From positions 6,324,001 through 6,388,000 of the forward strand of contig NZ_JAUSRB010000002.1 of assembly GCF_030811595.1 (NCBI RefSeq): a stretch of 64,000 nt of DNA, read 5' to 3'. This stretch comes from Streptosporangium brasiliense. Lineage in GTDB: Bacteria; Actinomycetota; Actinomycetes; Streptosporangiales; Streptosporangiaceae. A program made the translations under genes and the position numbers. Positions 20,344-62,363 of the stretch are shown here, piece after piece; within the stretch, counting starts at the first letter, position 1; every line of letters starts with the position of its first letter. The notes under the pieces were generated by a model. It did not search any database and was not told the origin of the DNA. It was given only the letters and a program-made list of their open reading frames with translations.

Positions 20344-20707
20344 GAGGTTCGCCTTCACCGGGTCGACGCTCCGATCGAGACAGCCGGACCCGGGGCCGGA
20401 TAAGACCGTGTGCCTGCCTATGCGACTGCGGTTACTGCCATCCATGCTTGTCGACCCTCTACTTGCCGGGTAGGGCGAAAGTCCCACGCGTCTCACTGTG
20501 GGCGTCCCGGCGGTCATGGCTATCGTGCCTCGGCATATGGAGCCGGTGGCCTTTGCCGTCTCACCCGACCGACCAGCCATGACGGCCCGACGACCTCCCC
20601 GGCCATGGCCATAGCGGAAATCAGGGCGGAAGGTCCTACGCCGGTGGGACCTTCCGCCCTGCCACGCTGAGGTCTTTGCCGCCGATCCTGGGAAGGGGGT
20701 GGAAGGG
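20344..20707. other. Intergenic region before the first USP gene
   Basis: No gene is supported here. It holds a half-site GGGCGAAAGTCCC at 20473-20485 and a full two-part motif at 20623-20660, and so is the regulatory region for the gene at 20708. Confidence 0.6.
20623..20660. promoter_or_regulatory. DosR-like two-part box upstream of USP gene 20708
   Basis: AGGGCGGAAGGTCC (20623-20636) and GGACCTTCCGCCCT (20647-20660) are perfect inverted copies around a 10-base spacer. The site ends 47 bases before the ATG. It is the most symmetric member of the motif family found throughout this half of the window. Confidence 0.7.
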
Positions 20708-21616
20708 ATGACTGATTCCCGCGACGTCGTCGTCGGCTATGACGGCTCCGACTTCTCCATGCAGGCCCTGGAGTGGGCGATGGACGAGGCCGAGCTGAGG
20801 AAGCTGCCGCTGACGGTGTCCCACGCCTGGCGATGGCCGTACGGCGAGGCCGACGAGGAGGCCAGAGGCCACCTGCGCAAGGCCGCCGAGCACGTGCTGT
20901 ACCACGGCGGCGAGTGCGCCCGCTCGTGCAGCACGATCACCGATGTCGCTACCGATCTGTATGAGGGAGCCGCCGCCGAGCGGCTGGTGGAGCTGTCGGC
21001 CCGCGCGGAGCTGGTCGTGGTGGGCTCGCGCGGGATGGGCGCTCTGGCCCGGGCCGTTGTGGGGTCGGTGGCCGGCTACGTGGCGGCGCACGCGTGCTGC
21101 CCGGTGGTCGTCGTGCGTGGGCCCGGCCCGATTCCCGTTCCGCGGCACCGTGGGTCGGTGGTCATGGGGATGACCGGGCACACGCCCGACGCGGCGATCG
21201 AGTTCGCCTTCGCCGAGGCCGACATCCGGAGGCTGCCCTTGGTGGCGGTGCACGTCGGACATCTGCAGCCGATGGCGTGGAGCGCGCCGATGCCGCTGGT
21301 GCCCGACACACAAGCCATTACGACGGCGGCCGAAGACGACATGCTCGAACGGTTGCAGCCGTGGCGGGCCGCCCATCCCGCGGTGTCGGTGCGCACCTAC
21401 TTTGTCGCCGCATCACCCAAGGACGCCTTGCTGGATCTGTCGAAGGAGGCCGCTTTGATGGTGGTCGGCGGCGCACGCGGGCACGGCAGGCTCGGCTCGG
21501 TGACCGCCTCGATCCTTCAGCATGCGTCCTGCGCCGTCGCGGTCGTCCCTGTCCTGAAGGAGAAGCCACTGCAGGCCGAGGGTTCACTTTCCACCTCCCA
21601 CGCCGTCGAAGGCTGA
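20708..21616 (+). CDS. Universal stress protein, two USP domains
   Basis: The 302-residue protein has two tandem USP domains. Domain 1 has VVVGYDGSDFSMQALEW and the ATP-loop VVGSRGMGALARAVVGSV; domain 2 (from about residue 150) lacks the usual Asp (VVMGMTGHTPDAAIEF) and has an altered loop (VVGGARGHGRLGSVTAS), so ATP binding may be confined to domain 1. The ATG at 20708 is chosen by alignment with its paralogue at 39408 (MKESRKIVIGYDGSDFSM). A CBS-BON gene follows 40 bases later and is probably co-transcribed. A DosR-like box lies upstream. Confidence 0.9.
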   Translation: MTDSRDVVVGYDGSDFSMQALEWAMDEAELRKLPLTVSHAWRWPYGEADEEARGHLRKAAEHVLYHGGECARSCSTITDVATDLYEGAAAERLVELSARAELVVVGSRGMGALARAVVGSVAGYVAAHACCPVVVVRGPGPIPVPRHRGSVVMGMTGHTPDAAIEFAFAEADIRRLPLVAVHVGHLQPMAWSAPMPLVPDTQAITTAAEDDMLERLQPWRAAHPAVSVRTYFVAASPKDALLDLSKEAALMVVGGARGHGRLGSVTASILQHASCAVAVVPVLKEKPLQAEGSLSTSHAVEG

Positions 21617-21656
21617 TCAGAACATCCTCATCGAGGAGAAAGCCGGGGAACAGCTC

Positions 21657-22340
21657 ATGGTGACGCAGGTGAAAGACGTCATGGGTGTGGTGGCCATCGC
21701 GGTTCACCGGCAAGCGACGTTCACCGAGTTGGTGGCGACCATGCGCCGCTTCAAGGTGAGCGCCGTCGCCGTGATCGACACCGACAGACACGTAATCGGG
21801 ATGGTGTCGGAAGACGATCTGCTGTTGAAGGAGACGGGCACCTCTTACGGCGAGCCCCTTTTCGAGGGCCGCCGGCGACAGCACGAGCCAGAGAGAGTTG
21901 CCGGGTTGACCGCTCAGGAGATCATGACCAGTCCGGCATTGACGGTCACTGCGGAAACCCCGATCAGGGAGGCGGCCCGGCTGATGCACGATCACCGGAT
22001 CAAGCAGTTACCGGTGGTTGCCCCCACCAGCGGGAAGATCACCGGCACCGTTCACCAGGTCGACCTGCTGAAGGTCCTCGACAGGTGGGCGCCTGACATC
22101 CTGGCGGATGTGGCCGCGGCCATCGCACGCCTGCACCTGGATACGCGGACGCTGGCGATCACCGTGGACGATGGTGCGGTGCGCGTCGGGGTCAGGCTGA
22201 CCAGACGCTCACAGGCCGCCCAGCTCGCTGAAGCCGGCCGCCGGATCGAGGGAGTGGTGGACCTGGAGGTCGACGCCATCTACGACCACGACGATCAGAC
22301 GAGAACCCATCCGATTCCGCCCGCTTGCATGCCCATATAA
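21657..22340 (+). CDS. CBS-CBS-BON domain protein
   Basis: The 227-residue protein has a CBS pair (VKDVMGVVAIAVHRQATF, VIDTDRHVIGMVSEDDLLL; EIMTSPALTVTAETPIREAA, VVAPTSGKITGTVHQVDLLK) and a C-terminal BON-like segment (RTLAITVDDGAVRVGVRLTR, EGVVDLEVDAIYDHDD). CBS pairs bind adenosyl nucleotides and sense energy charge; BON domains often contact membranes. It probably forms an operon with the USP gene upstream. CBS proteins such as Rv2626c belong to the mycobacterial DosR regulon. Confidence 0.85.
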   Translation: MVTQVKDVMGVVAIAVHRQATFTELVATMRRFKVSAVAVIDTDRHVIGMVSEDDLLLKETGTSYGEPLFEGRRRQHEPERVAGLTAQEIMTSPALTVTAETPIREAARLMHDHRIKQLPVVAPTSGKITGTVHQVDLLKVLDRWAPDILADVAAAIARLHLDTRTLAITVDDGAVRVGVRLTRRSQAAQLAEAGRRIEGVVDLEVDAIYDHDDQTRTHPIPPACMPI

Positions 22341-22465
22341 TCATTTATATATATGTATGTGAGGTTATAGCTGTCGGGGTATCTGGGCTGGACACGGGCC
22401 GACGATTCGGTCGTATTCTCCGACGAGCTCGCATAGCTCCGCCACACCGTGGCGAGCCGGTATCT

Positions 22466-22880
22466 TTACCGCCCTCTCCAGACCGGGGTGTCGTCTTGGT
22501 CCCACTCCAGTTTGTCAATCACATCGACGACCCCGTTCACCCGGCCGGCCATCCGCGCCGCGAGCTGGGCGTCACTGCGCCGGTGCATGCGCCCGGTCAG
22601 TGTGACGATCCTCTGGGGCGGTGGCGTCGTTGGGCTGCTCCCACAGGGTGTGCTGCAGGATCTCCTCGCACACCTCGTCGGCGATGTCGGCGTCCCGGCG
22701 GACGAAGACCTTCAACAGGTCATGGTGGCTGACGATGCCTTCGAGAAGGCCGTCGCCGTCGACGACGGGCAGTGTGCTGACGCTGTGAGCGATGAGCGCC
22801 TCGGTGGCGTCCTTGAACGGAGTACTGCCGTTGACCGACGCCACCTGCATGGTCATGACATCCTTGACCTCAACGCGCAT
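22466..22880 (-). pseudogene. CBS-BON gene with internal deletion and frameshift
   Basis: From ATG 22880 the frame starts like CBS1 (VEVKDVMTMQVASVNGSTPF), but at VVDGDGLLEGIVSHHDLLKV continues as the end of CBS2, so one CBS equivalent has been lost by in-frame recombination between similar sequences. Around 22615 the reading frame also slips: after QHTLWEQPNDATAPE the BON sequence RIVTLTGRMHRRSDAQLAAR and VNGVVDVIDKLEWDQDD continues in another frame to a stop at 22466. The annotated frame itself ends at 22572 (102 codons). A single CBS unit might still be made, but the gene looks damaged. It is divergent from the sensor kinase gene. Confidence 0.65.
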
Positions 22881-23061
22881 CGCTGAACCTCCTCACACGC
22901 ATATGGGCCCGGTCGATGGCGTGCGTGGCTTCGCGTCCGCCCGAGTTCCGGACGATGGGGATGCTCTGCCCACTCAGTTCTCGCTGGGCTCCTTACCCCT
23001 TCATCTCGCCGCCATCGGGATCGGCGGGGCAGAAGTCAGAGGTCCTCTCCTGAAATGGTCG

Positions 23062-23120
23062 GCATTCGAACGTTTGAATGCCTGCTCAGTGTCGGGATGG
23101 GCATTCAAATGTTCGAATGC
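23062..23120. promoter_or_regulatory. Twin palindromic operators before the sensor kinase
   Basis: GCATTCGAACGTTTGAATGC (23062-23081) and GCATTCAAATGTTCGAATGC (23101-23120) are near-perfect palindromes and nearly reverse complements of each other, starting 39 bases apart. The second ends 13 bases before the ATG at 23134. The sequence is AT-richer than its surroundings. This looks like a cooperative repressor or autoregulator site unrelated to the DosR-like boxes. Confidence 0.65.
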
Positions 23121-23133
23121 GCAACTCATAGGT

Positions 23134-24834
23134 ATGGCACAGATTGAGCCCAGCACATTGCTCCCGAACATGCAGCTGGATGAGCTGTTGTCGGAGCTGC
23201 AGGTGCGGCTGGAGGCCGTGCTGGGCACCCGGGACCGGGTGCACGCGCTGCTGAACGCGGTCGTGTCAGTAGGCAGTGATCTGGACCTGGAGACGGTGCT
23301 GCGCCGGATCGTGCGGGCCGCCACCACGCTGGTCGACGCCACCTACGGGGCGCTGGGTGCGGTGGGGGAGCACAAAACGCTGGTGCAGTTCGTCCCGGTG
23401 GGGCTGACGGAGGAGGAGATTGCCCGGATCGAGCACTGGCCGCACGGCTTGGGCCTGCTGGGCCTGCTGATCAAGGAGCCGCAGCCGTTGCGGCTGGCCC
23501 ACATCAGGGATCATCCCGAGTCATATGGATTCCCGCCGGGGCATCCCCCGATGGGGGCGTTTCTCGGCGTGCCGATCCGGGTGCGCGAGGAGGTGTTCGG
23601 CAACCTCTACCTCACCGAGAAACGCGGGGGAGGGGAGTTCGACGCCGAGGACGAGGCGATCGTCACCGCGCTGGCCGCGGCAGCGGGTGTCGCCATCGAA
23701 AACGCCCGGCTGTACGCCGACAGCCGCCGGCGGGAACGGTGGCTGCAGGCCTCCTCCGACGTGACGACCAGCTTGTTGTCAGGGGCCGAGCCAGGGCAGG
23801 TGCTGACCTTGATCGCCCGGCGTGCGCGGGAGATGGTCAGCGCCGATGTGGTGGCGGTGCTGCTGCCCGATGACAGCAGGCGCATCTTGCAAGTGATGAT
23901 CGCTGAGGGGTTGGCTTGTGGGGAAGTGGTCCGTGCGCAGGCGCCGGTCGCCGACTCTTTGGCGGGGCGGGCGTTCACCAAGGGTGAGCCGTTGATGGTG
24001 GCCGATCCGGCCGAGGCCGGAGTGCCGATCGCGATCGCGGACTATGCCGCGCTGGGTCCGGTGGCCGCGGTGCCGATCGGCGCGGCGGGCAGCGTGCGCG
24101 GGGTGTTGTCGCTGGGCAAGCGCTCAGGACGGTTGCCTTTCAGCCAGGCGGAGTTGCGGATGTTGCACGCCTTCGCCGGGCAGGCGGCGATTGCGTTGGA
24201 ACTGGCCGAGAGCCGGATGGACGCCGAGCGGCTGGGGTTGCTGGAAGATCGTGACCGGATCGCCAAGGATCTGCATGACGTGGTGATCCAGCGGCTGTTC
24301 GCGGTGGCGATGACGTTGATGAGCACGGTGCGGACGGTCGAGCGGCCGGAGGCGTCGTCGCGGTTACAGATGTCGATCGATGAGTTGGATGCGATCATCC
24401 GGCAGATTCGTTCAACCATTTTCGCCTTGCAGATCTCTTCGGAAGACGGTGAGAAGGGACTGCGTGCGCAGATCGTAGGGCTGGTAGAGGGCGCCCGAGG
24501 CCACCTGGGCTTCATGCCGGGCCTGACCATGGAGGGCCGGCTCGACATCATGGTGCCGGACCAGGTCGCCGAGCAGGCGCTGGCCGTGCTGCGGGAGGCG
24601 TTGTCCAACGTGGTGCGTCATGCCAGGGCGGCCAAGGTCGAGGTGGTGGTCGAGGTGGATGAGGATCGGCTCATCCTCACCGTGCTCGACGACGGGGTGG
24701 GGGCGTCGGAGGGCGGTCGGCGCAGCGGGCTGCGCAACCTCCAGGGGCGAGCCGAACGCCTCGGCGGCTCCTTCACGGTCGAATCTCGCCCAGGGGGCGG
24801 CACCTGCTTGATGTGGAGCGTGCCGCTGGCCTAG
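23134..24834 (+). CDS. devS: DevS/DosT-like GAF-GAF sensor histidine kinase
   Basis: The 566-residue soluble kinase has GAF-A (about 36-190), GAF-B (about 205-355), a HisKA_3 domain with phosphoacceptor His381 in IAKDLHDVVIQRLFA, and a C-terminal HATPase (ALAVLREALSNVVRHARA, VLDDGVGASEGGRRSGLRNL). GAF-A ends GHPPMGAFLGVPIRVREEVF, GNLYLTEKRGG, matching mycobacterial DevS/DosT, where the histidine of the HPPM motif is the heme ligand; here it is His137. It is therefore likely to sense O2, NO, CO or redox state. ATG 23134 is used although the frame is open upstream, because homology starts there and two operators precede it. No DosR-type partner gene is adjacent. Confidence 0.85.
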   Translation: MAQIEPSTLLPNMQLDELLSELQVRLEAVLGTRDRVHALLNAVVSVGSDLDLETVLRRIVRAATTLVDATYGALGAVGEHKTLVQFVPVGLTEEEIARIEHWPHGLGLLGLLIKEPQPLRLAHIRDHPESYGFPPGHPPMGAFLGVPIRVREEVFGNLYLTEKRGGGEFDAEDEAIVTALAAAAGVAIENARLYADSRRRERWLQASSDVTTSLLSGAEPGQVLTLIARRAREMVSADVVAVLLPDDSRRILQVMIAEGLACGEVVRAQAPVADSLAGRAFTKGEPLMVADPAEAGVPIAIADYAALGPVAAVPIGAAGSVRGVLSLGKRSGRLPFSQAELRMLHAFAGQAAIALELAESRMDAERLGLLEDRDRIAKDLHDVVIQRLFAVAMTLMSTVRTVERPEASSRLQMSIDELDAIIRQIRSTIFALQISSEDGEKGLRAQIVGLVEGARGHLGFMPGLTMEGRLDIMVPDQVAEQALAVLREALSNVVRHARAAKVEVVVEVDEDRLILTVLDDGVGASEGGRRSGLRNLQGRAERLGGSFTVESRPGGGTCLMWSVPLA

Positions 24835-26475: not shown

Positions 26476-26671
26476 CGACGATGCCTCCATGTCCGGGTCC
26501 GCCGTCCAGGCGATCGAGACCGGAATGGACGGATGGCGCCCGTTTCCAATGCCGGCTCAGGTGAGTGGGACAGACTCCCCATGTCTGATTTCTCCCCTGG
26601 TCATGGCTGGTGAATCGGGCGGACCGTGACAGACCGTATCGATGACCGGACGGGGGTGCCGGCCCGTGAGA

Positions 26672-26707
26672 GGGGCCTTCCGGCCTGGTCTTCGGGTCTT
26701 TCGGCCC
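26672..26707. promoter_or_regulatory. Tandem DosR-like boxes upstream of ftsH
   Basis: GGGGCCTTCCGGCC (26672-26685) and GGGTCTTTCGGCCC (26694-26707) stand in the same orientation, 22 bases start to start, about two helical turns. The second box ends 66 bases before the ftsH ATG. Confidence 0.6.
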
Positions 26708-26773
26708 TGCTGCGCCTCTGTCGTGTGGTTGAAAGCTGGCGGTGAGCAGGGAAACCGATGGGGAGACCGGCTG

Positions 26774-28699
26774 ATGATCACGCGAATTCGACTGCGCGGC
26801 CGGCATGCGACGGGTAAAGCGAAGCCAGGACCACCGAATGAGCCCCCACCTCCGCCGGCGACACCGCCGCCTCCCAACTGGCGGAGTTGGCTGCTGCCGG
26901 CGGCGATGACGATCTTCCTGTTGTGGCTGCTGATACCCGTCATGTTCACCGGGTCGGCGGCCACGCCGTACTCCTACAGCGACTTCGTGACGAAGGTGAA
27001 CACCGGGCAGGTCAAGGCGGTGACGGTCGATGATCAGGGTGCGGTGTCCGGCGACCTGAAGGATGGCGCGAGGTTCACCACCCAGATTCCCACAGCCCTC
27101 AACGTCGGCCGGCTGGACGCTCAGCTTCAGTCCAATCATGTTCAGATCACCGCGACCCGGTCCGACGGCTCCCTGGGGTCGATCCTGATCAGCTTCCTGC
27201 CGTTGGCGCTGCTGATCGGCCTGTTCATGTGGAGCGGACGGAAGGCGCAGCAGTCCCTGGCCGGTGGTCTCGGGGGGTTCGGCCGGTCACGAGCGAAAAT
27301 CATCGAGGCGGAGCGGCCGACTACCCGGTTCGGCGACGTCGCCGGTTATGACGGTGTCAAGCAGGAGATCAGCGAGGTCGTGGACTTCCTGCGGGCCCCC
27401 GAGCGGTACGCGGCGGCGGGCGCGAAACCACCCCGAGGCGTGATCATGGTGGGCCCTCCGGGGACGGGAAAGACGCTCATCGCCCGCGCCGTGGCCGGTG
27501 AGGCAGCCGTGCCGTTCCTGTCGGTCACCGGTTCGGCGTTCGTGGAGATGTTCGTCGGTGTGGGCGCCTCGCGGGTCCGTGACCTCTTCGACGAAGCACG
27601 CAGACGCGCGCCCTCCATCGTCTTCATCGACGAGATCGACGCCATCGGCGGCCGGCGGGGCGGAGCGGTCACCGGCGGCAACGACGAACGCGAACAGACG
27701 CTCAACCAACTGCTGGCCGAGATGGACGGCTTCGATCAGAGCAGCGGAATCGTCGTCCTGGCCGCGACGAACCGGCCCGAGACCCTTGATCCGGCCCTGC
27801 TGCGCCCCGGCCGCTTCGACCGGCAGGTGACTGTGCCGCTGCCCAACCAGGTCGAGCGGGCGGCGATCCTGGCCGTTCACGCGGCCGGGAAGCATCTGGC
27901 CCCGGACGTCGATCTCGGGGTGATCGCCCGTGGCACCCCGGGATTCTCCGGCGCGGACCTGGCCAACCTCGTCAACGAGGCCGCCATCAACGCCGTCAGG
28001 GCGGGCCGTACGACCATCGACGCCCATGACCTCGACGCGGCACGCGACCGGGTACTGCTGGGCCGCCGGGAGACCTCCAACGCTCTGCTCCCGCAAGAGC
28101 GCCACGCGGTGGCCGTGCATGAATCCGGGCATGCGCTGCTCGCCACGTTGTGCGAGCATGCCGACCCGGTCGCGAAGGTGACCATCCTTCCCGCCGGTCT
28201 GACACTCGGCGTCACCGAGCAACTGCCCGAGGCCGAGCGGCACCTCTACAGCGAGAGCTATCTGGCCGACCTGCTCGCCGTACGGCTCGGCGGCCGGGCC
28301 GCGGAACTGGTCGTCTTCGGCGAAGGCTCCACCGGCGCCGCCAACGACCTGGCGGCCGCCACGCAGATCGCCACTCGTATGGTGCGTGACTTCGGCCTGT
28401 CGCCCGCGCTCGGCCCGGTCGGCTACTCCTCGGCCACTTCTCAGTATCTGGGCGAGGACGCCGAAGAGTTCCGGCGCAAGCCGTACTCCGAGCGGACCCA
28501 GAAGATCATCGACGAAGAGGTGGCCCGGCTTCTCAGCGGGGCGGAGAAGCGCGCGATCGACCTGCTGCGCGCCCACCGCGGCGCTCTCGACCGGCTCGCG
28601 GCGATCCTGGTGGAACACGAGACCATCGCCGGTGACGTCGTCGGTAGCGTGTTGCAGGCTGAGCGGCCTGCGGTTATCGGTCTGGACGGCATCGCATGA
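26774..28699 (+). CDS. ftsH: FtsH-type membrane ATP-dependent zinc metalloprotease
   Basis: The 641-residue protein has two N-terminal membrane helices ([20 protein letters not shown] and [17 protein letters not shown]) around an extracytoplasmic domain, then an AAA+ module with Walker A GPPGTGKT, Walker [13 protein letters not shown] and [22 protein letters not shown], and an M41 peptidase with zinc motif HESGH and later Asp in [16 protein letters not shown]. It degrades membrane and misfolded proteins. The N-terminus is proline-rich ([11 protein letters not shown]). GGGGAGA precedes ATG 26774. Tandem DosR-like boxes suggest a stress-induced paralogue rather than the housekeeping FtsH, which would usually sit near hpt/folate genes. 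Confidence 0.9.
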
Positions 28700-30115: not shown

Positions 30116-30130
30116 GAGCCGAAGGTCCCC
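30116..30130. promoter_or_regulatory. DosR-like box between DUF1876 and ATPase genes
   Basis: GAGCCGAAGGTCCCC matches the left half of the composite motif (its complement reads GGGGACCTTCGGCTC). It ends 57 bases before the ATPase ATG. A clear right half is not seen. Confidence 0.55.
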
Positions 30131-37305: not shown

Positions 37306-37340
37306 GGGCGAAGGTCCTGTTCATGCCGGGACGATCGCCC
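37306..37340. promoter_or_regulatory. DosR-like two-part box upstream of USP gene 37402
   Basis: GGGCGAAGGTCC (37306-37317) and GGGACGATCGCCC (37328-37340) form the inverted composite motif, ending 61 bases before the ATG. Confidence 0.65.
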
Positions 37341-37401
37341 CTGGGGAAAACGCCGACGCTGCGGTCGGATGGAAGCGCAGCAGAAGCGAGAGGAACACGT
37401 C

Positions 37402-38253
37402 ATGACCGAATCGATCACCGCTGCGACGGACGGCTCGCCCGCCGCCATGGCGGCCGTGAAATGGGCGGCTGATGACGCCGCCCGCAGAGGGTTGCCGTTG
37501 CAGATCGTCCACGTCGTGGAGCGCTGGCCGTATGGCGTCGCCGCGTTCCCGCCGCCCGACTGGGCCGAGCTCGCGGCGCGCGCCGGCGAGCAGGTGCTCG
37601 TCGAAGCGATCACCGTGGTCACGGAATACCGGCCGGACGTCCGGGTGAGGACCGAACTGATCGAGGGATCACCGGCCAAGGTTCTGCGGGAGCAGGCCGG
37701 CACGGCCACCGAGATCGTGATCGGCAGCCGCGGCCTGGGCGGCTTCGTCGGCGCCCTGCTGGGCTCAATGGTCCTCCACGTGGCCGGTCATGTGCCCGGC
37801 ACCGTCGTGGTCGTCAGGGCGGATGCCGGCGAGCCGCACGGTGAGATCGTCGTGGGTGTCGACGGCTCCGCCGAATGCGAGCCCGCGCTGGCCTACGCCT
37901 TCGAGCAGGCCAAACTGCGCGGCTGCGCGTTGCGCGCCGTCCACGCCTGGCAGCGGCCGGTGTACGGCCTCATACCGGAGATCCCCGCCGACATAGAAGA
38001 GGTTCACCGTTCCCACCAGCGTATGGTGCGAGACAAGCTCGCTGCCTGGCGGGAGAAGTTTCCCGAGGTGGAGGTGGTGGAGGACGTTCGGAGCGCGCAT
38101 CCGGTCGAGGCTCTGGCCGATGCTTCGACCAGGGCCGACCTGGTCGTCGTGGGCTCGAAGGGGATGGGGGCGGTCGGCTCGGTGCTGCTGGGCTCCGTCA
38201 GCCGAGGCGTGCTGCACCACGCCCACAGCCCGGTGGCGGTGGTCAACTCGTGA
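37402..38253 (+). CDS. Universal stress protein, two USP domains
   Basis: The 283-residue protein has ATDGSPAAMAAVKWAADDAA with loop VIGSRGLGGFVGALLGSM in domain 1, and VVGVDGSAECEPALAYAFEQ with VVGSKGMGAVGSVLLGSVSR in domain 2, so both domains look able to bind ATP. It is a paralogue of the gene at 60492 (shared MTESI start, HVPG segment and SAECEPAL). ATG 37402 follows GAGGAAC. It stands 99 bases before another USP gene and may be co-transcribed with it. Confidence 0.9.
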   Translation: MTESITAATDGSPAAMAAVKWAADDAARRGLPLQIVHVVERWPYGVAAFPPPDWAELAARAGEQVLVEAITVVTEYRPDVRVRTELIEGSPAKVLREQAGTATEIVIGSRGLGGFVGALLGSMVLHVAGHVPGTVVVVRADAGEPHGEIVVGVDGSAECEPALAYAFEQAKLRGCALRAVHAWQRPVYGLIPEIPADIEEVHRSHQRMVRDKLAAWREKFPEVEVVEDVRSAHPVEALADASTRADLVVVGSKGMGAVGSVLLGSVSRGVLHHAHSPVAVVNS

Positions 38254-39360: not shown

Positions 39361-39407
39361 TACTGACCAATCCGGGCATCACCGACCATGGAACCGAGGC
39401 GATAACC

Positions 39408-42863: not shown

Positions 42864-43672
42864 CACAGCTCCCTCACGGCCAGCAGGCCGGCGGCCCGCT
42901 CGTAGCTCAGCACCGGACCGTCGAGGCAGGTCAGCAGTGGGCCGAGCTGGCAGTGGCCGCAGCGGCCGACGCCGCACTTCATGTCGCGCTCCACCGACAG
43001 CATCACCCGTGCGGCCGAAACCCCCCGTCGCACCAGCTCGGCCGCGGTCGCGCGCATCATGATCTCGGGACCGCAGACGAAGGCGAACGTGCGGCGGGGT
43101 TCGAAGACGATCCGGTCGATCAGCCGCGTGACCAGGCCCACCGGCCCTTTCCACGCGAGGTCGGGGTGGTCCACGGTGACCTGGACGTCGATGCCGTCCC
43201 TGTCGCGCCAGCGGGCCAGCTCACCGGGGTAGATCAGGGTCGCGGGCGTGCGGGTGCCGACGATCAGGCTGATGCGACCGTACCGGGAGCCGTGAGCGGC
43301 CAGCTCTCGGATGACCGGCCGCAGCGGGGCCAAGCCGAGCCCACCCGCGGCCACGACCACGTCCAGACCCGCTGCCGCCGACAGATCCCACGCCGTGCCG
43401 TACGGCCCGCGCACCCCCACCACGTCACCGCGCCGGGTGCGGCACAACGCCCCGCTGACCGCGCCCACGGCGCGGATCGTCTGCACATAGCCGCCGGAGC
43501 GGGCCCGACCGCTGATCGAGACCGGTATCTCCCCGACCCCAGGGGCGTAGATCATCGTGAACTGACCTGGTAGAAACGGCGGACACGGGCCCTCGACCGG
43601 CTTGAGAGCCAAGGTCACCGTGTCGGCCCGGTCCGGGCGGCGGGAACGCACCAGGTAGGGCGCCGACGTCAT
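42863..43672 (-). CDS. hyhG: Hydrogenase FAD/NAD(P)-binding (gamma) subunit
   Basis: The 269-residue protein is a ferredoxin-reductase-type module: FAD-binding [23 protein letters not shown]-binding [20 protein letters not shown] and [18 protein letters not shown], and a C-terminal cluster motif [19 protein letters not shown]. It passes electrons between the hydrogenase and NAD(P)H. ATG 43672 overlaps the stop of the beta subunit gene (ATGA); an ATG nine bases upstream is also possible. Confidence 0.9.
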
Positions 43673-45034: not shown

Positions 45035-45138
45035 TCGTCGGACGGCCAGGAGACCTCAACGCGAGGAGACGGCGGGTCCTTCCTGACAGGAGCCCGACGG
45101 CATCCCGCCGGGCTTGCGGCGCACTTCACGGGATGACC

Positions 45139-45164
45139 GTAGGTCCCACGAGAAGGGGACCTAC
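45139..45164. promoter_or_regulatory. DosR-like palindromic box upstream of USP gene 45225
   Basis: GTAGGTCCC and GGGACCTAC are perfect inverted 9-mers around an 8-base spacer, followed by GCCGGTGGCACCTCCTGCC, which repeats the spacer and right half of the site at 20631-20660. It ends 60 bases before the ATG. Confidence 0.6.
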
Positions 45165-45224
45165 GCCGGTGGCACCTCCTGCCGCCCGGCGGTGTGATGC
45201 TGCCATGAGCATCGGGAGGTCGCC

Positions 45225-46094
45225 ATGATCATAGTAGGAGTCGACGGCTCGCAGGCCGCTCTCAAGGCCGTGAGCTGGGCGGTGGGAGAGGCCGGCGTGC
45301 GTGGTGCCGCGCTGCGCATCGTGCACGCCGTCCCCGCCCTACCCTTGACGACAGCGAAAGACGCGGCACACGCCGATACGGACCGGCGGATGCGTGATGC
45401 GGCCGCGTCCATGCTGACGGCGGCACTGGAACGCGCACGTCAAGAAGATCCTCGTGTGAAGACGGAGTCGTCGCTGCTGGCCGGTGACCCACGCCTCGTC
45501 CTGATCGAGGCCGCGAAGGAAGCGGAGCTGCTGGTGGTCGGCAGCAGCGGGCTGGGAGGATTCCAGGGCATGCTGCTCGGCTTGGTGGCGTTCGGCGTGG
45601 TAGGACATACCGCTTGCCCGATCGCCGTCATACGGAATCCGCCCGCGCAGGCACGCGGTGAGGTGGTCGTCGGGGTCGACGGCTCTCCGGACGGCAGGGG
45701 CGCCATCGAGTTCGCCTTCGCCGAGGCGTCCCTGCGTGGTGCCGGTCTGCGGGCGATTCACGCCTGGAACTGGCCCGTCGGCTGCGGGACGTTCGCTCTG
45801 TCTGCTATGGAGGAAGAAGAGACCGCCGAAGGTGAGCGGCGTCTGCTGGCCGAGGCGCTGGCGGGCTGGAGTGAGCGCTATCCGGATGTCAAGCTCATCG
45901 AGCAGGCGGAGCACGGGCATCCGGTGGAGGTTCTGAAGAACGCCTCGGCGCACGCCGACCTGCTGGTCGTGGGGTCACGTGGACGCGGAGACTTCGCCGG
46001 GCTGCTGCTGGGCTCGGTCAGTCACGCACTGCTGCACCACGCCGCCTGCCCGCTGATCGTGGCGCCCGCCGCGGTGGTAGCCGAACACGTCTGA
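45225..46094 (+). CDS. Universal stress protein, two USP domains
   Basis: The 289-residue protein starts MIIVGVDGSQAALKAVSWAV, with loop VVGSSGLGGFQGMLLGLVAF, then VVVGVDGSPDGRGAIEFAFA and VVGSRGRGDFAGLLLGSVSH in domain 2. Both ATP sites look intact. It is the closest paralogue of the USP at 38353. GGGAGG precedes ATG 45225. It is divergent from the hydrogenase operon across about 480 bases holding DosR-like sites. Confidence 0.9.
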   Translation: MIIVGVDGSQAALKAVSWAVGEAGVRGAALRIVHAVPALPLTTAKDAAHADTDRRMRDAAASMLTAALERARQEDPRVKTESSLLAGDPRLVLIEAAKEAELLVVGSSGLGGFQGMLLGLVAFGVVGHTACPIAVIRNPPAQARGEVVVGVDGSPDGRGAIEFAFAEASLRGAGLRAIHAWNWPVGCGTFALSAMEEEETAEGERRLLAEALAGWSERYPDVKLIEQAEHGHPVEVLKNASAHADLLVVGSRGRGDFAGLLLGSVSHALLHHAACPLIVAPAAVVAEHV

Positions 46095-46310: not shown

Positions 46311-46344
46311 GGACGGAAGTCCTGAAAGCGGGGGACGTTCGCCC
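46311..46344. promoter_or_regulatory. DosR-like two-part box upstream of USP gene 46414
   Basis: GGACGGAAGTCC (46311-46322) and GGGGACGTTCGCCC (46331-46344), ending 69 bases before the chosen ATG. Confidence 0.65.
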
Positions 46345-46413
46345 GCTGCGCGTGACGGCCTCCAACAGTGAGATGGAGATGGAAGACACGGAGCTCCCGA
46401 CAAGGAGATGACC

Positions 46414-47286
46414 ATGAGTGGGCAGATCGTCGTCGGTGTCGATGGTTCCGCGACCGCGACGGCGGCGCTGGAGTGGGCAGCCGATGACGCCGCGCGAAAG
46501 GGCGCCACCTTGAAGATCGTGTGCGTGCGTGAACCGTGGGCAGGCGACTTCCCCTTCCACACCGCCCCCGGCCTGAGCGACGCGTTGAGAGAGCACTGCG
46601 ACGAAGTGCTCGCCGCGGCGGCCGCTCGGGCCCGCGAGCGAGCGCCGGAGATCGAGGTGACCACCGACCAGGTGATCGGCGCGGTGGTCGAGCGGCTGAA
46701 AAGCGAATCCGAGACCGCCGACACGCTCGTGCTCGGCAGCCGTGGATCGGGCGGTTTCGCCGGCCTGGTCCTCGGATCGGTCGGCATGGGAGTCGCCGGG
46801 CACGCGGCCGGCCCCGTGGTCATCGTGCGGCAGGCCGCCCAGAGCGTTCACGGTGAGATCGCCGTCGGCTACGACGGATCCGTTCACGGTGAGGCCGCCC
46901 TGGAGTACGCCTTCGAGCAGGCCCGGCTGCGCGCCGCGCGACTCCACGTCGTTCACGCCTGGCAGACCCCGGCGTTCGCCTCCCGCGCCGTCACCTACGC
47001 CGATCTGCTGCAGGAGACGTTCGAAAGCGAATCCCGCATGGCCCGCCAGCGTCTGGTCCTCTGGCGCGACAAGCACCCGGATGTCTCGGTGAAGGAGTCG
47101 ATCCTGTGCGGCCACCCGGTACCCGCCCTCACCGACGCCTCACGTGCCGCTGATCTGGTCGTGGTCGGCTCACGCGGCCTCGGCACCCTCGGCTCGGCCC
47201 TGCTGGGCTCGGTCAGCCACGGTCTTCTGCATCGTGCCCACTGCCCCGTCGCCGTCGTGCGCCCCGGAAGGGCTCCATTGAGGTGA
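46414..47286 (+). CDS. Universal stress protein, two USP domains
   Basis: The 290-residue protein starts QIVVGVDGSATATAALEWAA, loop VLGSRGSGGFAGLVLGSVGM, then IAVGYDGSVHGEAALEYAFE and VVGSRGLGTLGSALLGSVSH. ATG 46414 is preferred over 46408 because AAGGAG is six bases away. It is paralogous to the gene at 62426. The last codons and the stop (47284-47286) lie inside an IS terminal sequence starting at 47279, so the extreme C-terminus may have been changed by that insertion. Confidence 0.9.
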   Translation: MSGQIVVGVDGSATATAALEWAADDAARKGATLKIVCVREPWAGDFPFHTAPGLSDALREHCDEVLAAAAARARERAPEIEVTTDQVIGAVVERLKSESETADTLVLGSRGSGGFAGLVLGSVGMGVAGHAAGPVVIVRQAAQSVHGEIAVGYDGSVHGEAALEYAFEQARLRAARLHVVHAWQTPAFASRAVTYADLLQETFESESRMARQRLVLWRDKHPDVSVKESILCGHPVPALTDASRAADLVVVGSRGLGTLGSALLGSVSHGLLHRAHCPVAVVRPGRAPLR

Positions 47287-51635: not shown

Positions 51636-52067
51636 TCAGGTATCCGGCTGCGGCTTGGACTCGATCGGGATGCGTTTCCCCTCCTGCTCGGCGTCGGCGA
51701 GTTTGACGCTGACCTCCAGGATGCCCTTGTCGTAGGTCGCCCTGATGTCGTTGTCGTCCACGCCGACGGGTAGCGTGACGGAACGAGTGAAGGAGCCGTA
51801 GCGGAACTCCGTCCGGTGCTGGTCCTTGCGTTCGTCATGCCGCTCGGCGCGGACGGTCAGGACGCCGTTGGACAGAGTTATCTCGACATCTTTTTCGGGG
51901 TCGATTCCCGGCAGTTCGGCGCGTAGTACGTAGCGGCCTTCCTTGACATAGTCCTCGAATTTGATGGGCTGGGTCATGGGCGGCCGCAGGGCGGCGAAGG
52001 GAATCTCCAGCAAATCGAACAGATCGGGGACGAGGCCCCGCTGCTCCCGGCGCATCGGCGTACTCAT
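51636..52067 (-). CDS. Hsp20/alpha-crystallin small heat-shock protein (HspX-like)
   Basis: The 143-residue chaperone has an N-terminal arm (LVPDLFDLLEIPFAALRP), an alpha-crystallin domain (IKFEDYVKEGRYVLRAELPG, DVEITLSNGVLTVRAERHDE, RYGSFTRSVTLPVGVDDNDI, GILEVSVKLAD) and a C-terminal IPI motif (KRIPIESK). It holds unfolding proteins without ATP. M. tuberculosis HspX (Rv2031c), the hallmark DosR target, has the same architecture. GGAGG precedes ATG 52067, and the DosR-like box at 52133-52166 is 65 bases upstream. Confidence 0.9.
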   Translation of the reverse strand: MSTPMRREQRGLVPDLFDLLEIPFAALRPPMTQPIKFEDYVKEGRYVLRAELPGIDPEKDVEITLSNGVLTVRAERHDERKDQHRTEFRYGSFTRSVTLPVGVDDNDIRATYDKGILEVSVKLADAEQEGKRIPIESKPQPDT

Positions 52068-52132: not shown

Positions 52133-52166
52133 GGTCGGAGGTCCCTGAAGAACAGGACTTTCGGCC
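52133..52166. promoter_or_regulatory. DosR-like two-part box upstream of hsp20
   Basis: GGTCGGAGGTCCC (52133-52145) and AGGACTTTCGGCC (52154-52166). The right half is the copy closest to the mycobacterial GGGACTTTCGGCCC style of box. Confidence 0.65.
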
Positions 52167-52201: not shown

Positions 52202-53167
52202 TCAGGCTGTTTCGAGGATGTCCGAAACGGGACGGCGTGGGGTGCCGAGCACAGCCGGGCCATAACCGAAGCGGATGATCATCTGTGGGTGGGCGCGGTG
52301 GTGCCGCGGATCTGTCCGGCCGCGCATGTCCCGCAGGTCCAGTGGCTGGTTGAGGAACGAGGCGGATACACCATAGAGGGTCGCGACCAACAGCACCCGT
52401 TGCAACGCTTGTCCGGCTCGCAGCCAGTCGAGCGGGTGATCATCCCAGGTGGTGAGGACGGCGAGCTGCGGACGTGTCTCCCACCGGGTGTCACTTGCCG
52501 GTAGCTGACCGAAATCGCGGTTAAGTGTCCCGGTGCCTCCTCCGGGGCCGAGATGATCCGGCGGGATACCGTCCGTCCGCGGGACGTCGGTGGTCCAGCG
52601 AGCGAGCTCCGCGCGGTAGTCGCCGTCAGCGTGGAGCCGAGTGTCGGCCATGCCGATCTGCTGCAGGAACGTGTCGCTGATCCGGGTGTCCACGATGATC
52701 AGGTCCGTGCCTTCGGAACGTGCGGCCCGGACCAGCTCGTGCATGATCGGACGAGGGACGATGCATCCAGAGAACGGTCGGCGGTTGGTGTGCCGTGCCG
52801 CGATGGCGTCGTAGAGCCTTCGCTCCTCGCCGGAGGGCGGGATCGATCGGGCCGGGCGCACGACGGCGAGCAGCGGTACCTTCATCTCCGACTCCTCGGT
52901 CCGCGGCAGTAGCCAGGTCACAGGGTCATAGCCGGCCACGCGCAGTGCCAGCCGCAGGTTCAGCAAGGCGGCGCCGCAGCTGATGTGCAGGCAACGATCG
53001 CGTGGATCGGCCACCGTCAGCCTGCGGTCCAGATCTGCCCGCAGTCGCACGGTCTCGTCCCCGTACACGCTGAAGCGCCAGGGCTGGGTGTTGTGCATCG
53101 ACGGAGCGGCACCTGCGGTGGCGATGAGCCGCCGGGTTTCAAGGCGTCCCTCGGCTGGGCTGGGCAT
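52202..53167 (-). CDS. Acg-like nitroreductase-family protein
   Basis: The 321-residue protein belongs to the atypical double-length nitroreductase group: AGAAPSMHNTQPWRFSVYGD at the N-terminus, CLHISCGAALLNLRLALRVA, AARHTNRRPFSGCIVPRPIM, and a C-terminal HPQMIIRFGYGPAV. Acg (Rv2032) and Rv3131 of the mycobacterial DosR regulon have this form. They bind FMN poorly and may sequester flavin rather than reduce nitro compounds. It is separated from hsp20 by 134 bases in the same direction, each gene with its own box, like the acr/acg pair in M. tuberculosis (there divergent). Confidence 0.85.
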   Translation of the reverse strand: MPSPAEGRLETRRLIATAGAAPSMHNTQPWRFSVYGDETVRLRADLDRRLTVADPRDRCLHISCGAALLNLRLALRVAGYDPVTWLLPRTEESEMKVPLLAVVRPARSIPPSGEERRLYDAIAARHTNRRPFSGCIVPRPIMHELVRAARSEGTDLIIVDTRISDTFLQQIGMADTRLHADGDYRAELARWTTDVPRTDGIPPDHLGPGGGTGTLNRDFGQLPASDTRWETRPQLAVLTTWDDHPLDWLRAGQALQRVLLVATLYGVSASFLNQPLDLRDMRGRTDPRHHRAHPQMIIRFGYGPAVLGTPRRPVSDILETA

Positions 53168-56583: not shown

Positions 56584-56640
56584 ACGGTCCAGCCTCGCTC
56601 ATCGCCGAGGCGACCCTTAGAGTCCAAGTGCCCTTGCGGG

Positions 56641-56703
56641 CAGGGACTGTCGGCTCTAAGGGGCGCGGGTGCCGAAGGTCCCTCCAGCTGGTGCCTTTCG
56701 GCC
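56641..56703. promoter_or_regulatory. DosR-like boxes between the GNAT-synthetase and mgtA genes
   Basis: A composite TGCCGAAGGTCCC (56670-56682) and GGTGCCTTTCGGCC (56690-56703) ends 38 bases before the mgtA ATG. A further CAGGGACTGTCGGCTC lies at 56640-56655, nearer the divergent gene (start 56583). Confidence 0.65.
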
Positions 56704-56741
56704 GGAGAGCCATCCCGCCTGGCGGTGCTCTGCTGGGGAGT

Positions 56742-59435
56742 ATGGGGACCGCCGTGCACATACCGTCGGGTGCGGCACACCTGATGGGTCTGTCCGCCGG
56801 TGAGGCGGCCGCGCTGCCCGCCGTACAGGTGCTCGACCGGCTGGGCGTCACCGAGGCGGGGTTGTCCGGTGCCGAGGCCGCGCGGCGCCGGGCGATCTGT
56901 GGTCCGAACGCGGTGCGCGTCCACCACGCTCGGGCGTTGCGGGTGCTGGGGCGGCAGCTGCGCAATGCGGTGCTGGTGCTGCTGGTGGTAACAGCGGTCG
57001 TTTCGTTCTTTGTCGGGGACAGCACCAACGCGGTGATCATCGGGGTGATCCTGGCGGCCAGTGTGGGGTTGGGCTTCGTCAACGAGTATCGGGCCGAACG
57101 GGCGGCTCAGGCGCTGCATTCCCAGGTCAGGCATACCGCCGTGGCGGTGCGCGATGGCCGGCTCGTCGAGGTTGACGTCACCGTGCTGGTGCCCGGCGAC
57201 GTGGTACGGCTGACGCTGGGCGGGATCGTCCCGGCGGATCTGCGGCTGCTGACCACGACCGGTCTGGAATGCGACGAGAGCGTGCTGACCGGTGAGTCGC
57301 TGCCGGTGGACAAGATGGTCGCGCCCGTCCCGTCCGGCACGGTGCTGGCCGAGCTGCGCTGCTGCGCCCTGATGGGCACGGTCGTGCGGGCGGGTGGCGG
57401 TACCGGCGTGGTGGTCGCGACCGGTGGACGCGCGGCCTTCGGCCGCATCGCGCTCGGCCTGGGGCAGCGGCAACCGGAGACCGCTTTCCAGGCCGGGTTG
57501 CGGCATTTCTCGGTGCTACTGCTGCAGGTCGCGATCACGCTGACCTCACTGATCCTGGTGACGAACCTGGTGCTGCAGCGCCCGCTGATCGAGTCATTGC
57601 TGTTCTCCCTGGCGATCGCGGTAGGCATCACCCCACAGCTGCTGCCCGCGGTGGTCAGCACCAGCCTGGCGGCCGGTTCTCGGCGGCTCGCCCGATGCAA
57701 GGTGCTGGTCAAACGGCTGGTCTGCATCGAGGACCTCGGCGACATGGACGTCCTGGTCACCGACAAGACCGGTACCCTGACCGAGGGCCGGATCGCTTTC
57801 GTCGCCGCCCTGGGCCCGGACGGAGCCACCGACGACCGGGTGCTGCTTCTTGGTCTGCTGGCGACCGAGTCCGATCTGCCGGCCGAGGCCGCCTCTGCGA
57901 CAGAGGCCGACCTGCCGGCCGGCGGCTCGGTCGCGGTGGGAGGAAATTCGCTGGATGCGGCGCTGTGGCAGGCGCCAGGTGCTCCGGTGCACCTGGCCGG
58001 CGGCTACACGCGGCTCGGGCTGCTGCCGTTCGATCATGAACGCCGAATGACCACCGCCGTGCTCCGCGGTCCGGACGGCACCCGGGTGCTGATCACCAAA
58101 GGCGCGCCCGAGGCCGTCCTGAGCCGCTGTCCGGACCTGCCGGCCGGAGCTGCTGACACGCTGCGGGCTCAGTTCGCCGCCGGCAGCCGGGTCGTGGCCG
58201 TCGCCACCCGGCCCGTTGCCGGTCTGACCGTCCCGACGCCGGCCGACGAACGCGACCTGATCCTGGCTGGGTTCCTGGTGTTTCTCGATCGGCCCAAGGA
58301 AGCCGCCGCCGCCTCACTGCGCCGCCTCGCCGCGCTCGGCATCACCGTGAAGGTCGCCACCGGAGACAACCCGCTGGTCGCGGAGAAAGTCTGCGCCGAC
58401 CTCGGCCTGACCTCGGGTGGCACCATGACCGGCACCGACATCGCCGCACTGGACGACGACGCCCTCGCCGCCGTCGCCGAGACCACCACGATCTTCGCCC
58501 GGGTCTCTCCGGAACAGAAAGCGCGGCTGATCCGGCTGCTGCGCCGCCGCGGACGTGACGTGGGATTCCTCGGCGACGGGGTCAACGACGCGCTCGCGCT
58601 GCACGCCGCCGACGTCGGGATCTCGGTGGACACCGCCACCGACGTCGCCAAGGACGCCGCCGACGTCGTCCTGCTGGAAAAGGATCTCGGGGTCCTGGCC
58701 GACGGGGTCGCCGAGGGCCGGCGCATCTTCGCCAACACCATCAAGTACGTCCTGATGGGCACCTCGAGTAACTTCGGCAACATGTTCAGCGCCGCCTCCG
58801 CCTCAGCGGTGCTGAGCTTCCTGCCGATGCTTCCGGGCCAGATCCTGCTGAACAACCTGCTCTATGACACCAGCCAGCTCAGCATCCCCACCGACCACGT
58901 CGATCCCGAACAGCTCCACGCCCCCTCGCACTGGGACATCGGCTTCATCCGGCGGTTCATGTTCTTCTTCGGCCCGATCAGCTCCCTGTTCGACTTCCTC
59001 ACCTTCGCGATCATGCTCGGCGTTTTCCACGCCGGCCCCGAACTGTTCCGCTCCGGCTGGTTCGTGGAGTCCCTCGCGACCCAGACTCTGATCATCTTCG
59101 CGATCCGTACCCGGCGGATCCCGTTCTTGCGCAGCCGGCCCAGCGTCCCGCTGCTGGCCGCCGTCCTCGGTGTCGTCGCCGTCGGGATCGCGCTGCCGTC
59201 ATCGCCGCTGTCGCACGCGCTGGGATTCACCACACTGCCGCCCGTGTTCTTCCTCACCCTGACCGGAATGCTCATCGCCTACCTGATCCTGGTCGAGTCC
59301 GCCAAGAAGGTGTTCTTCGCAGGCCCTGTCGACAGGCCGCCCACTGTCCGCCGCCGCGACCATGTCCATCACATGCAGCGCCGGGCCTCCCGGTTCAGCC
59401 ACCAAGGTCCGCTGCCCGGCCGCACCGGCCGGTGA
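56742..59435 (+). CDS. mgtA: MgtA-type magnesium P-type ATPase
   Basis: The 897-residue pump is a type IIIB P-type ATPase: SVLTGESLPVDKMVAP (actuator), LVTDKTGTLTEGRIAFVAA (phosphorylation site), FLGDGVNDALALHAADVGIS (hinge) and the diagnostic C-terminal LLNNLLYDTSQLSIPTDHVD with the following membrane helices. These pumps import Mg2+. ATG 56742 follows GGGGAG; it gives MGTAVHIPSG before LSAGEAAALP. MgtA genes are usually controlled by Mg2+ or phosphate; here DosR-like boxes directly precede it. The gene ends exactly at the stop codon of the convergent GH65 remnant. Confidence 0.9.
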   Translation: MGTAVHIPSGAAHLMGLSAGEAAALPAVQVLDRLGVTEAGLSGAEAARRRAICGPNAVRVHHARALRVLGRQLRNAVLVLLVVTAVVSFFVGDSTNAVIIGVILAASVGLGFVNEYRAERAAQALHSQVRHTAVAVRDGRLVEVDVTVLVPGDVVRLTLGGIVPADLRLLTTTGLECDESVLTGESLPVDKMVAPVPSGTVLAELRCCALMGTVVRAGGGTGVVVATGGRAAFGRIALGLGQRQPETAFQAGLRHFSVLLLQVAITLTSLILVTNLVLQRPLIESLLFSLAIAVGITPQLLPAVVSTSLAAGSRRLARCKVLVKRLVCIEDLGDMDVLVTDKTGTLTEGRIAFVAALGPDGATDDRVLLLGLLATESDLPAEAASATEADLPAGGSVAVGGNSLDAALWQAPGAPVHLAGGYTRLGLLPFDHERRMTTAVLRGPDGTRVLITKGAPEAVLSRCPDLPAGAADTLRAQFAAGSRVVAVATRPVAGLTVPTPADERDLILAGFLVFLDRPKEAAAASLRRLAALGITVKVATGDNPLVAEKVCADLGLTSGGTMTGTDIAALDDDALAAVAETTTIFARVSPEQKARLIRLLRRRGRDVGFLGDGVNDALALHAADVGISVDTATDVAKDAADVVLLEKDLGVLADGVAEGRRIFANTIKYVLMGTSSNFGNMFSAASASAVLSFLPMLPGQILLNNLLYDTSQLSIPTDHVDPEQLHAPSHWDIGFIRRFMFFFGPISSLFDFLTFAIMLGVFHAGPELFRSGWFVESLATQTLIIFAIRTRRIPFLRSRPSVPLLAAVLGVVAVGIALPSSPLSHALGFTTLPPVFFLTLTGMLIAYLILVESAKKVFFAGPVDRPPTVRRRDHVHHMQRRASRFSHQGPLPGRTGR

Positions 59436-61340: not shown

Positions 61341-61437
61341 ATCGAATCAGCCTGCCCGGGGCGCGTGGCGGGTTTCTTGGGGCCCGGTGGCAATGATGCC
61401 GACCCGGTGACCGCTCCGGCGTACACCTCTTCGAGGA

Positions 61438-62109
61438 TCATGAAACGTGCCGGATGCGGCGGCCGGTGATCTCTGCCGGGACGATGCTGAGGTACAGCTC
61501 CCGCTCGCCGCCCGCCCAGGGTTGGACTCCTGAGGCGGCGGCCGCGGCCTGCTCATCGGCGGAGACGTGGTGGGCGCCGCCCCGGATGAGCACGCTCCAG
61601 CCCTCGCGGGCGGCGTCGTCGATGCGGTCGACCTCGAATGCGATCTTGAACTCGGTCCCCTGGACACCGGTGCGCAGGTTGTCGTCGAGCGGGCCGCCGA
61701 CGGCGGTGCGGACGATCACTGAGTTGTTGCGTAGCACGTAGTTGACCGGCAGAATCGCCGGTCCTCCGGGCTCGTTGAAGGCCACTCTGCCGACGCCGCC
61801 GGGAGCGATCAGCCGCAGGCACTCCTCGGCCTCCAGCCTCTCCAGACGAGGATGAGGGGCGGGATGGCCGCGCCCGGGCGGCAGGTCCATCGTCCCGCCG
61901 AGCAGTTCCTCGACACCGGTATTCAAGGCGGCGGCCAGTTTACGCACGGTGTCGAGAGTCGGGGAGGCGGCTGTCTCCTCCAGGTAGCCGAGGTATCCGG
62001 GATCGATCCCGGCCTGGCCTGCCAGCTGCTCGCGGCTGAGGCCCAGCTCCTTGCGCCGCAAGGCCAGCCGACGGGCCAGGTCGCCGGGGGCCGTCACACG
62101 TTCGGTCAT
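61438..62109 (-). CDS. XRE-type HTH fused to a pyridoxamine-oxidase-fold domain
   Basis: The 223-residue protein has an XRE/HTH_3 domain at about 5-70 (LARRLALRRKELGLSREQLA, IDPGYLGYLEETAASPTLDT) and a flavin split-barrel domain from about 80 (RLEAEECLRLIAPGGVGRVA, AILPVNYVLRNNSVIVRTAV, FEVDRIDDAAREGWSVLIRG, VPAEITGRRIRH). Such a fusion could be a transcription factor using FMN, F420 or heme binding as its signal. ATG 62109 has AGGAG seven bases upstream. It is convergent with a USP gene and divergent from another, with the box at 62330-62363 between. Confidence 0.85.
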   Translation of the reverse strand: MTERVTAPGDLARRLALRRKELGLSREQLAGQAGIDPGYLGYLEETAASPTLDTVRKLAAALNTGVEELLGGTMDLPPGRGHPAPHPRLERLEAEECLRLIAPGGVGRVAFNEPGGPAILPVNYVLRNNSVIVRTAVGGPLDDNLRTGVQGTEFKIAFEVDRIDDAAREGWSVLIRGGAHHVSADEQAAAAASGVQPWAGGERELYLSIVPAEITGRRIRHVS

Positions 62110-62329
62110 CGGAATCTCCTGACGGGAAACAAACAACGATCATGGGTTGGGGCTGTCGGATGCCGCCTACCCTCAACCGGACAGCGTGCGGGCCTTTCGG
62201 TATCGCTCGCTTCCTATCACAGGGGAACAGCGCTCAGCAGGCCAAGAGCGCCGCCGTGTGCCGGTCCGCCTTCGCAGGGAGGCGTTTCCCATGTCCTTCA
62301 TTCCACTACGGACGAAGTCCGGTGACAGG

Positions 62330-62363
62330 GGTCGGAAGTCCCTGACGGCCGGGTCCTTCGACC
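62330..62363. promoter_or_regulatory. DosR-like two-part box upstream of USP gene 62426
   Basis: GGTCGGAAGTCCC (62330-62342) and GGGTCCTTCGACC (62351-62363), ending 62 bases before the ATG. Confidence 0.65.

Follow-up and report, generated by a model that had tools for sequence, protein, structure and literature searches.

Which regulator, if any, reads the two-part motif that recurs in front of genes for universal stress proteins (USP) and their neighbours in Streptosporangium brasiliense? The motif lies in a stretch of 64,000 nucleotides (G000:C2:6324001-6388000, called the window from here on) of the 10.5 Mb genome, and an earlier note on this DNA had taken it as the mark of one regulon whose half-sites resemble the mycobacterial DosR/DevR box. 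Our analysis leads to the same family of regulators: the window contains nine paired elements, each consisting of two facing, near-palindromic boxes of 13-14 bp (13-mers), and these are very probably binding sites for the DosR/DevR/OsdR orthologue of this genome, as predicted from sequence comparison. In the window pairs the left box is GGNCGRANGTCCC and the right box GGGACNTYCGNCC, the box type being GGGACNTTCGGCC, and each box fits the DosR/OsdR consensus, so that the resemblance seen earlier holds. The centres of the facing boxes are 22 bp apart; measured from start to start the spacing is 21 bp in seven pairs and 22 bp in two, and the element is 34-35 bp long. The two-part element itself was thus described correctly, and its dimensions (20-24 bp spacing, 34-38 bp length) had been set too wide. 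The predicted sites are listed here together with the single boxes and one example of the downstream promoter region (G, C and L numbers are our handles for genomes, contigs and loci):

20625..20658, plus strand: paired DosR boxes (21 bp) upstream of the USP gene 20699-21616; near-perfect inverted repeat
26673..26706, plus strand: direct-orientation paired boxes (++, 21 bp; boxes at 26673 and 26694), then CTG, upstream of ftsH
30117..30129, minus strand: single box with a weak partner, of doubtful function, near the start of a CtpF-like P-type ATPase gene
37306..37340, plus strand: paired DosR boxes (22 bp) upstream of a USP gene; near-identical copy in L009
39325..39359, plus strand: paired DosR boxes (22 bp) upstream of a USP gene; also at L198
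45022..45034, minus strand: single box, then CTG, tentative, upstream of a NiFe-hydrogenase gene set
45135..45168, plus strand: paired DosR boxes (21 bp) upstream of the USP gene 45225-46094
46311..46344, plus strand: paired DosR boxes (21 bp) upstream of the USP gene 46408-47286; identical 34-mer in genome G012
52133..52166, minus strand: paired DosR boxes (21 bp) in front of hsp20, as also before the hsp20 genes of L165, L185, L190 and L205
53217..53250, minus strand: paired DosR boxes (21 bp) upstream of a nitroreductase gene
56670..56703, no strand assigned: paired DosR boxes (21 bp) between a divergent GNAT/acyl-CoA-synthetase-like gene and an mgtA-like P-type ATPase gene; also at L197 in G004
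62330..62363, plus strand: paired DosR boxes (21 bp) upstream of a USP gene (start near 62426); identical 34-mer in genome G012
62365..62394, plus strand: example of the inferred -35/-10 region, with CTG adjoining the box and ATGG about 27 bp further on

All eight copies previously regarded as the main ones (20625, 37306, 39325, 46311, 52133, 53217, 56670 and 62330) are full pairs. Among the supposed variant or partial forms, the one placed at 45139 starts at 45135 and makes up a ninth full pair, and that at 26672 is the direct-orientation pair, while those at 45021, 30116 and 20473 are single boxes. With start codons estimated by homology, seven of the nine pairs end 28-65 bp before an open reading frame (ORF) or gene start (40, 28, 56, 63, 65, 49 and 56 bp). 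The other two lie differently: the pair at 39325 overlaps the start of an over-extended ORF (-57), the start given in the earlier note, 39408, being 48 bp downstream, and the pair at 56670 is separated from the leftward gene by 86 bp and lies within the over-extended start of the rightward gene. The targets expected of a DosR regulon, namely USP, nitroreductase and small heat-shock protein, are present behind the window pairs.

Is there a regulator to match? In a search with DevR, in which 150 of 208 candidates were scored, one clear DosR orthologue was found (C2:7784919-7785557, L046; 60% to DevR, the next best reaching 43%), and it is the single DosR match of this genome at E<=1e-75. It keeps the contact residues K179, K182 and N183, the phospho-acceptor D54 and T82, and of eight other response regulators examined, among them that of the window, none has all three contact residues. 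The roles of K179, K182, N183 and D54 follow two publications (PMC4082495, PMC3029386). Fifteen of 16 genomes of the genus, including this one, encode a DosR that is 89-100% identical, and in the other genera of the family DosR was detected at E<=1e-70 in 19 of 21 genomes. Moreover, 13 of 44 located pair matches in 16 genomes of these other genera lie within 15 kb of dosR, where about 0.2 would be expected (44 of the 45 pair matches had a position).

Candidate sensors are present as well. The window kinase at 22792-24834 matches DevS GAF-A structures at E 1e-49 and keeps the histidine of the PPxHPPM motif, which we take to be the haem ligand. It is one of three DevS-like kinases, the paralogues at C2:5850454 and C2:6308168 sharing 80% and 61% identity with it.

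Another NarL/VraR-type response regulator could bind the pairs instead, for example the NarL-family protein encoded in the window at 18071-18724, which is accompanied by a neighbouring kinase (16641-18074) and lies 1.9 kb from the first pair. Genome G008, with pairs, no DosR found and 20 other NarL-type matches, would suit such a binder. The window regulator, however, is a different protein from the DosR orthologue. Its scores against VraR and NarL exceed that against DevR, and as its recognition helix differs from DevR at two of the three contact residues (K179L, N183T) we judge it unlikely to be the binder. The pairs in other genera also co-localise with DosR, although co-localisation was computed for dosR only. 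Altogether we consider binding by a different regulator of this type improbable, and DosR remains our preferred candidate.

How specific is the pair for this set of genes? We derived a scoring matrix from the nine window pairs; at a threshold of 20 or more it found no pair in any of 20 random versions of the window generated with order-3 Markov statistics. Outside the window 13 further distinct sites reached this threshold (three in L002, two in L003, one in L006, four in L009 and three in L010); they lie in other parts of the USP islands, and two of the four L009 sites are copies of window promoters. One further site in L014 scored 20.3 with the same matrix, which gave no site of at least 20 in L015-L040 (26 loci, 520 kb, four of them with distant Usp-domain hits). 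A whole-genome pattern for the 21-bp form only, with at most three mismatches, which misses the window pairs 37306, 39325, 45135 and 53217, resulted in 14 sites compared to 2 for the reversed pattern (Poisson P ~3e-8). Eleven of these 14 are located within three USP islands (C1:1.876-1.903, C2:6.344-6.392 and C2:7.686-7.704 Mb) and the remaining three at C2:6.315, 5.906 and 6.856 Mb, of which one precedes the window by 9 kb. The sites of the regulon postulated before do not form a single block of 42 kb but three USP islands with three outlying sites. In 15 other genomes of the genus the pattern matched 105 times versus 21 times for the reversed control, and in several Streptosporangium genomes pairs precede genes for USP, CBS-domain, Hsp20, nitroreductase and PNPOx-like proteins. 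The element of the 20625 type is also found at USP1 homologues in L002, L009, L168, L177, L184, L189 and L199. A single box followed by CTG was rejected as a genome-wide predictor because it is unspecific, with 37+36 matches against 64+74 in the reversed control; this lack of enrichment indicates that specificity resides in the pair. In front of USP2 homologues two pairs can stand 60-61 bp apart (L010:3677 and 3737; L166:1440 and 1501), possibly as a four-box array.

For a closer look at conservation we compiled 49 non-redundant sites, defined as pairs that score at least 20 and are followed within 0-140 bp by a gene homologous to one for a window protein (bits >120). The stretches examined comprised all listed matches of G001, G002, G004, G006-G009 and G012, three of the ten of G015 and three sites of the own genome. 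Near-identical copies, the loci L042 and L043 and pairs without a window-protein homologue (e.g. L009:18242, L167, L169, L206, L213 and L216) were left out; eight of the nine window training pairs are included, 39325 having been dropped. The downstream gene encodes a USP in 27 cases, a CBS-domain protein in 11, Hsp20 in four, a nitroreductase-like protein in four, a PNPOx-like protein in two and a GNAT/acyl-CoA-synthetase-like protein in one. The spacing is 21 bp in 45 sites and 22 bp in four, the sites sharing ancestry and thus not being independent events. In the seven gene families with at least four members, and for 21-bp pairs only, identity amounts to 63-94% in the left box, 69-100% in the right box and 33-49% in the 60 bp upstream, a contrast that is partly built in as the sites were picked by box score. 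In USP2 the 30 bp downstream are likewise conserved (0.83).

The same sites bear on two explanations without a DNA-binding regulator at the pair. First, the inverted repeats might act as RNA hairpins, that is as a terminator, an attenuator or an element of the 5' untranslated region, and some copies, such as 20625, are indeed near-perfect inverted repeats. The complementarity of the arms, however, is 0.732 compared to 0.724 +- 0.011 after re-pairing of arms from different sites; for the 41 sites outside the CCTTCCGCC type it is 0.687 and hence below the re-paired value of 0.712. No TTTT follows within 20 bp downstream in the 49 sites, and the conserved CTG and ATG downstream suggest an element upstream of a promoter. 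As the arms do not covary, a protein site is indicated rather than a hairpin, and we reject the hairpin or terminator as very unlikely. Second, the pairs might be a dispersed repeat or the end of a mobile element copied around the islands with no regulatory role, for which the near-identical duplicated blocks (97-99%) shared by the window and C2:7.68-7.71 Mb could be quoted. Against such copying stand the de-duplicated set, in which upstream flanks are 33-49% and boxes 63-100% identical, the fixed spacing and similar gene distance across species, and the pairs at 20-23 bp near dosR in other families, and we regard this explanation as the least credible of all. A DosR-like regulon with paired boxes two helical turns apart, as the earlier note had proposed, is favoured by the consensus, the orthologue, the kinases, the targets, the co-localisation and the conservation of the element over its flanks.

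What do the pairs control? In 40 of the 49 sites a CTG touches the promoter-proximal box, compared to one to five sites at seven other offsets, and the mirror-image CAG stands beside the distal box in seven of 49, the matrix leaning slightly to a flanking CTG or CAG because it reads three bases on either side of each box. With CAG so rare at the distal box, the CTG looks like a promoter mark and not like a part of the box. An ATG follows 27-29 bp after the CTG in 31 of 46 sites (the 49 minus three without xTG), the best other three-base range giving 12. We reject it as the start codon, since it coincides with the homology-estimated start in one case only. A conventional -10 was rejected as well, as TANNNT was found within 70 bp downstream of none of the 49 sites, where shuffles give about 10. 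From this pattern we infer a core promoter that would consist of a -35-like CTGnC, a spacer of 18 bp and a weak -10 ending in AT. With such a placement the proximal box would be centred near -42 and the distal box near -64; the adjacent boxes themselves are present in the DNA, and a position of the near box at the -35 would follow from the conserved CTG and ATG.

In the mechanism that we propose, low oxygen or nitric oxide (NO) would switch on the DevS-type kinases, which would phosphorylate DosR. Two DosR dimers would then bind the pair cooperatively on one helix face, and the proximal dimer, abutting the weak -35 (CTGnC), would recruit RNA polymerase to a promoter without a canonical -10. 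With boxes near -42 and -64 this would be a class II activation. A further-reaching proposal, which we consider possible rather than probable, is that in the Streptosporangiales a hard-wired composite promoter serves as the dormancy switch. Its parts would be two DosR boxes spaced at 22 bp, a CTG abutting them and, about 28 bp on, an ATGG that takes the place of the TANNNT -10. Transcription would be wholly DosR-dependent or would use an alternative sigma factor, and DosR promoters across Actinomycetota would have the 22 bp pair as an ancestral rule.

Does the spacing rule extend beyond the genus? The best 80 of at least 578 confirmed DosR loci, called the named loci here, were analyzed in two ways. 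The window matrix detected 18 facing pairs at 20-21 bp, all of them in loci of Streptosporangiales. In a consensus-only test (GGG[AC]C N4 G[GT]CCC, 9 of 10 positions, families labelled from record titles) 22 bp is the commonest distance between centres in Streptosporangiaceae (7), Thermomonosporaceae (5) and other Actinomycetota (7), and in Streptomycetaceae it ties with 14 bp for first place (10 each). Pairs at 20-23 bp number 9 in Streptosporangiaceae, 5 in Thermomonosporaceae, 12 in other Actinomycetota and 24 in Streptomycetaceae, compared to 0.6, 0, 0.6 and 1.4 in shuffles. Other spacings are also raised in Streptomycetaceae (86 vs 14.4 over 14-60 bp), which makes the 22 bp rule less sharp there, and at the stricter threshold of 10 of 10 positions only 1, 0, 2 and 1 pairs at 20-23 bp are left in the same order of families. 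CTG stands beside one box in 19 of 34 pair matches scoring at least 22 in the named loci, a raw count with no chance control and with one match counted in two registers.

Several observations weigh against DosR as the common regulator or against a wide reach of the pair. In genome G008 no DosR orthologue was found (best match 40%), and yet it shows seven pairs vs none in the control; it is a draft of 80 contigs, and its pairs stand before the usual target genes. The gene dosR (C2:7.785 Mb) is 1.4 Mb from the window and adjoins none of the three DevS-like kinases, so that regulator and kinase do not share an operon (kinases at 5.850, 6.308 and 6.347 Mb). DosT of M. tuberculosis is likewise unlinked to its regulator, and a shared operon is therefore not strictly defining. 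The promoter of dosR in the window's genome (L046/L220) carries no pair. Among 15 loci of the genus, that of G012 has a pair scoring at least 18 before dosR (L222:1381) and that of G007 a 20-bp form with a score of 18.6 (L229:1478), and among the 80 named loci a pair of at least 16 does so in five, with L085 being the best; a box of its own before the regulator gene is not a strictly defining feature of a DosR regulon either. Only 10 of the 80 named loci show a facing pair with the window matrix, none of them from Streptomyces. Outside the genus enrichment is modest: 21 genomes of the family's other genera have 45 matches vs 18, with 16 of the 45 in one genome, and 23 genomes from the order and class have 25 vs 8. 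Within the window, the pair at 56670 has no CTG beside a box, and the sites at 20473 and 30117 are single boxes without a convincing partner and probably due to chance.

The Dev box of M. tuberculosis has the core GGGAC...GGCCC, and the P-type ATPase gene ctpF is a target of the DevR/DosR regulon in this species. Our system shares with it an orthologous regulator with the same contact residues and DevS-type GAF-GAF kinases. According to PMC3029386 and PMC4973870, DevR binding to adjacent boxes is cooperative, and the nearer of the boxes overlaps the -35. Sites are close-packed in both systems, cooperative binding being a feature described for M. tuberculosis (PMC3029386), and USP, nitroreductase and heat-shock protein are targets in M. 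tuberculosis (PMC5069765) and predicted targets here. Unlike in M. tuberculosis, going by the descriptions accessible to us, the spacing here is nearly invariant and the boxes are mostly facing; in addition, the regulator is neither located beside a kinase nor preceded by a pair, and the genes are spread over three islands. The second relative is OsdR/OsdK of Streptomyces coelicolor. OsdR binds a palindromic 16-bp site, AGGGCCGATCGGCCCT, and the SCO5979 region, which has a predicted OsdR site, was bound by OsdR in gel shifts (both from PMC5069765); this predicted site holds our consensus box exactly. Both systems have a palindromic site, a USP-rich core region around osdR being a feature of S. 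coelicolor (PMC5069765), and the pairs at 20-23 bp near osdR homologues in Streptomycetaceae (24 vs 1.4, consensus-only) add to this likeness. They differ in that the accessible part of PMC5069765 describes one 16-nt site and no fixed pair, and in that the box here has the more asymmetric GGGACNTTCGGCC form.

Mechanism and regulator family are therefore already known. As far as we searched, novelty lies in the lineage, in the strictness of the geometry and in the conservation of the core promoter; a search of the papers available to us for DosR with Streptosporangium gave no match, and among the titles listed by a search for the spacing rule none was relevant. The DosR dormancy regulon would thereby be extended to Streptosporangium, and 'paired Dev boxes' become a testable geometric rule of 22 bp between centres plus a conserved core promoter. 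This rule could improve regulon prediction across actinobacteria over scans for single boxes, which fail here, and the strain might serve as a harmless soil model in which to study DosR cooperativity.

The genes of the window to which the above refers are:

20699..21616, plus strand: USP
22792..24834, plus strand: DevS/DosT-like GAF-GAF histidine kinase, candidate oxygen/NO sensor
26642..28699, plus strand: FtsH protease (over-extended ORF; start probably near 26774)
37369..38253, plus strand: USP
39303..40265, plus strand: USP (start probably near 39408)
40262..44742, minus strand: NiFe-hydrogenase gene set with maturation protease, large and small subunits and Fer4 protein
45225..46094, plus strand: USP
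46408..47286, plus strand: USP
51636..52067, minus strand: Hsp20
52202..53167, minus strand: nitroreductase-family protein
56628..59435, plus strand: P-type cation ATPase (ORF start over-extended)
62147..63292, plus strand: USP (ORF start over-extended)

The NiFe-hydrogenase set (40262-44742) sits among the USP genes within the island and is preceded by a single box with CTG (45022, minus strand). A NADAR-domain protein (34348-34827) adjoins a DDE transposase and an integrase fragment, also within the island, which is bordered and interrupted by IS110-type, IS30-like and DDE transposases and the integrase fragment (1141-2376, 19174-20337 and 34864-36601). Finally, window positions 20598-28705 and 37055-38386 correspond to L009, and 59174-61338 to L010 (C2:7.68-7.71 Mb), in inverted blocks of 97-99% identity that are separated by gaps, from which we conclude that part of the USP island has been duplicated about 1.3 Mb away.

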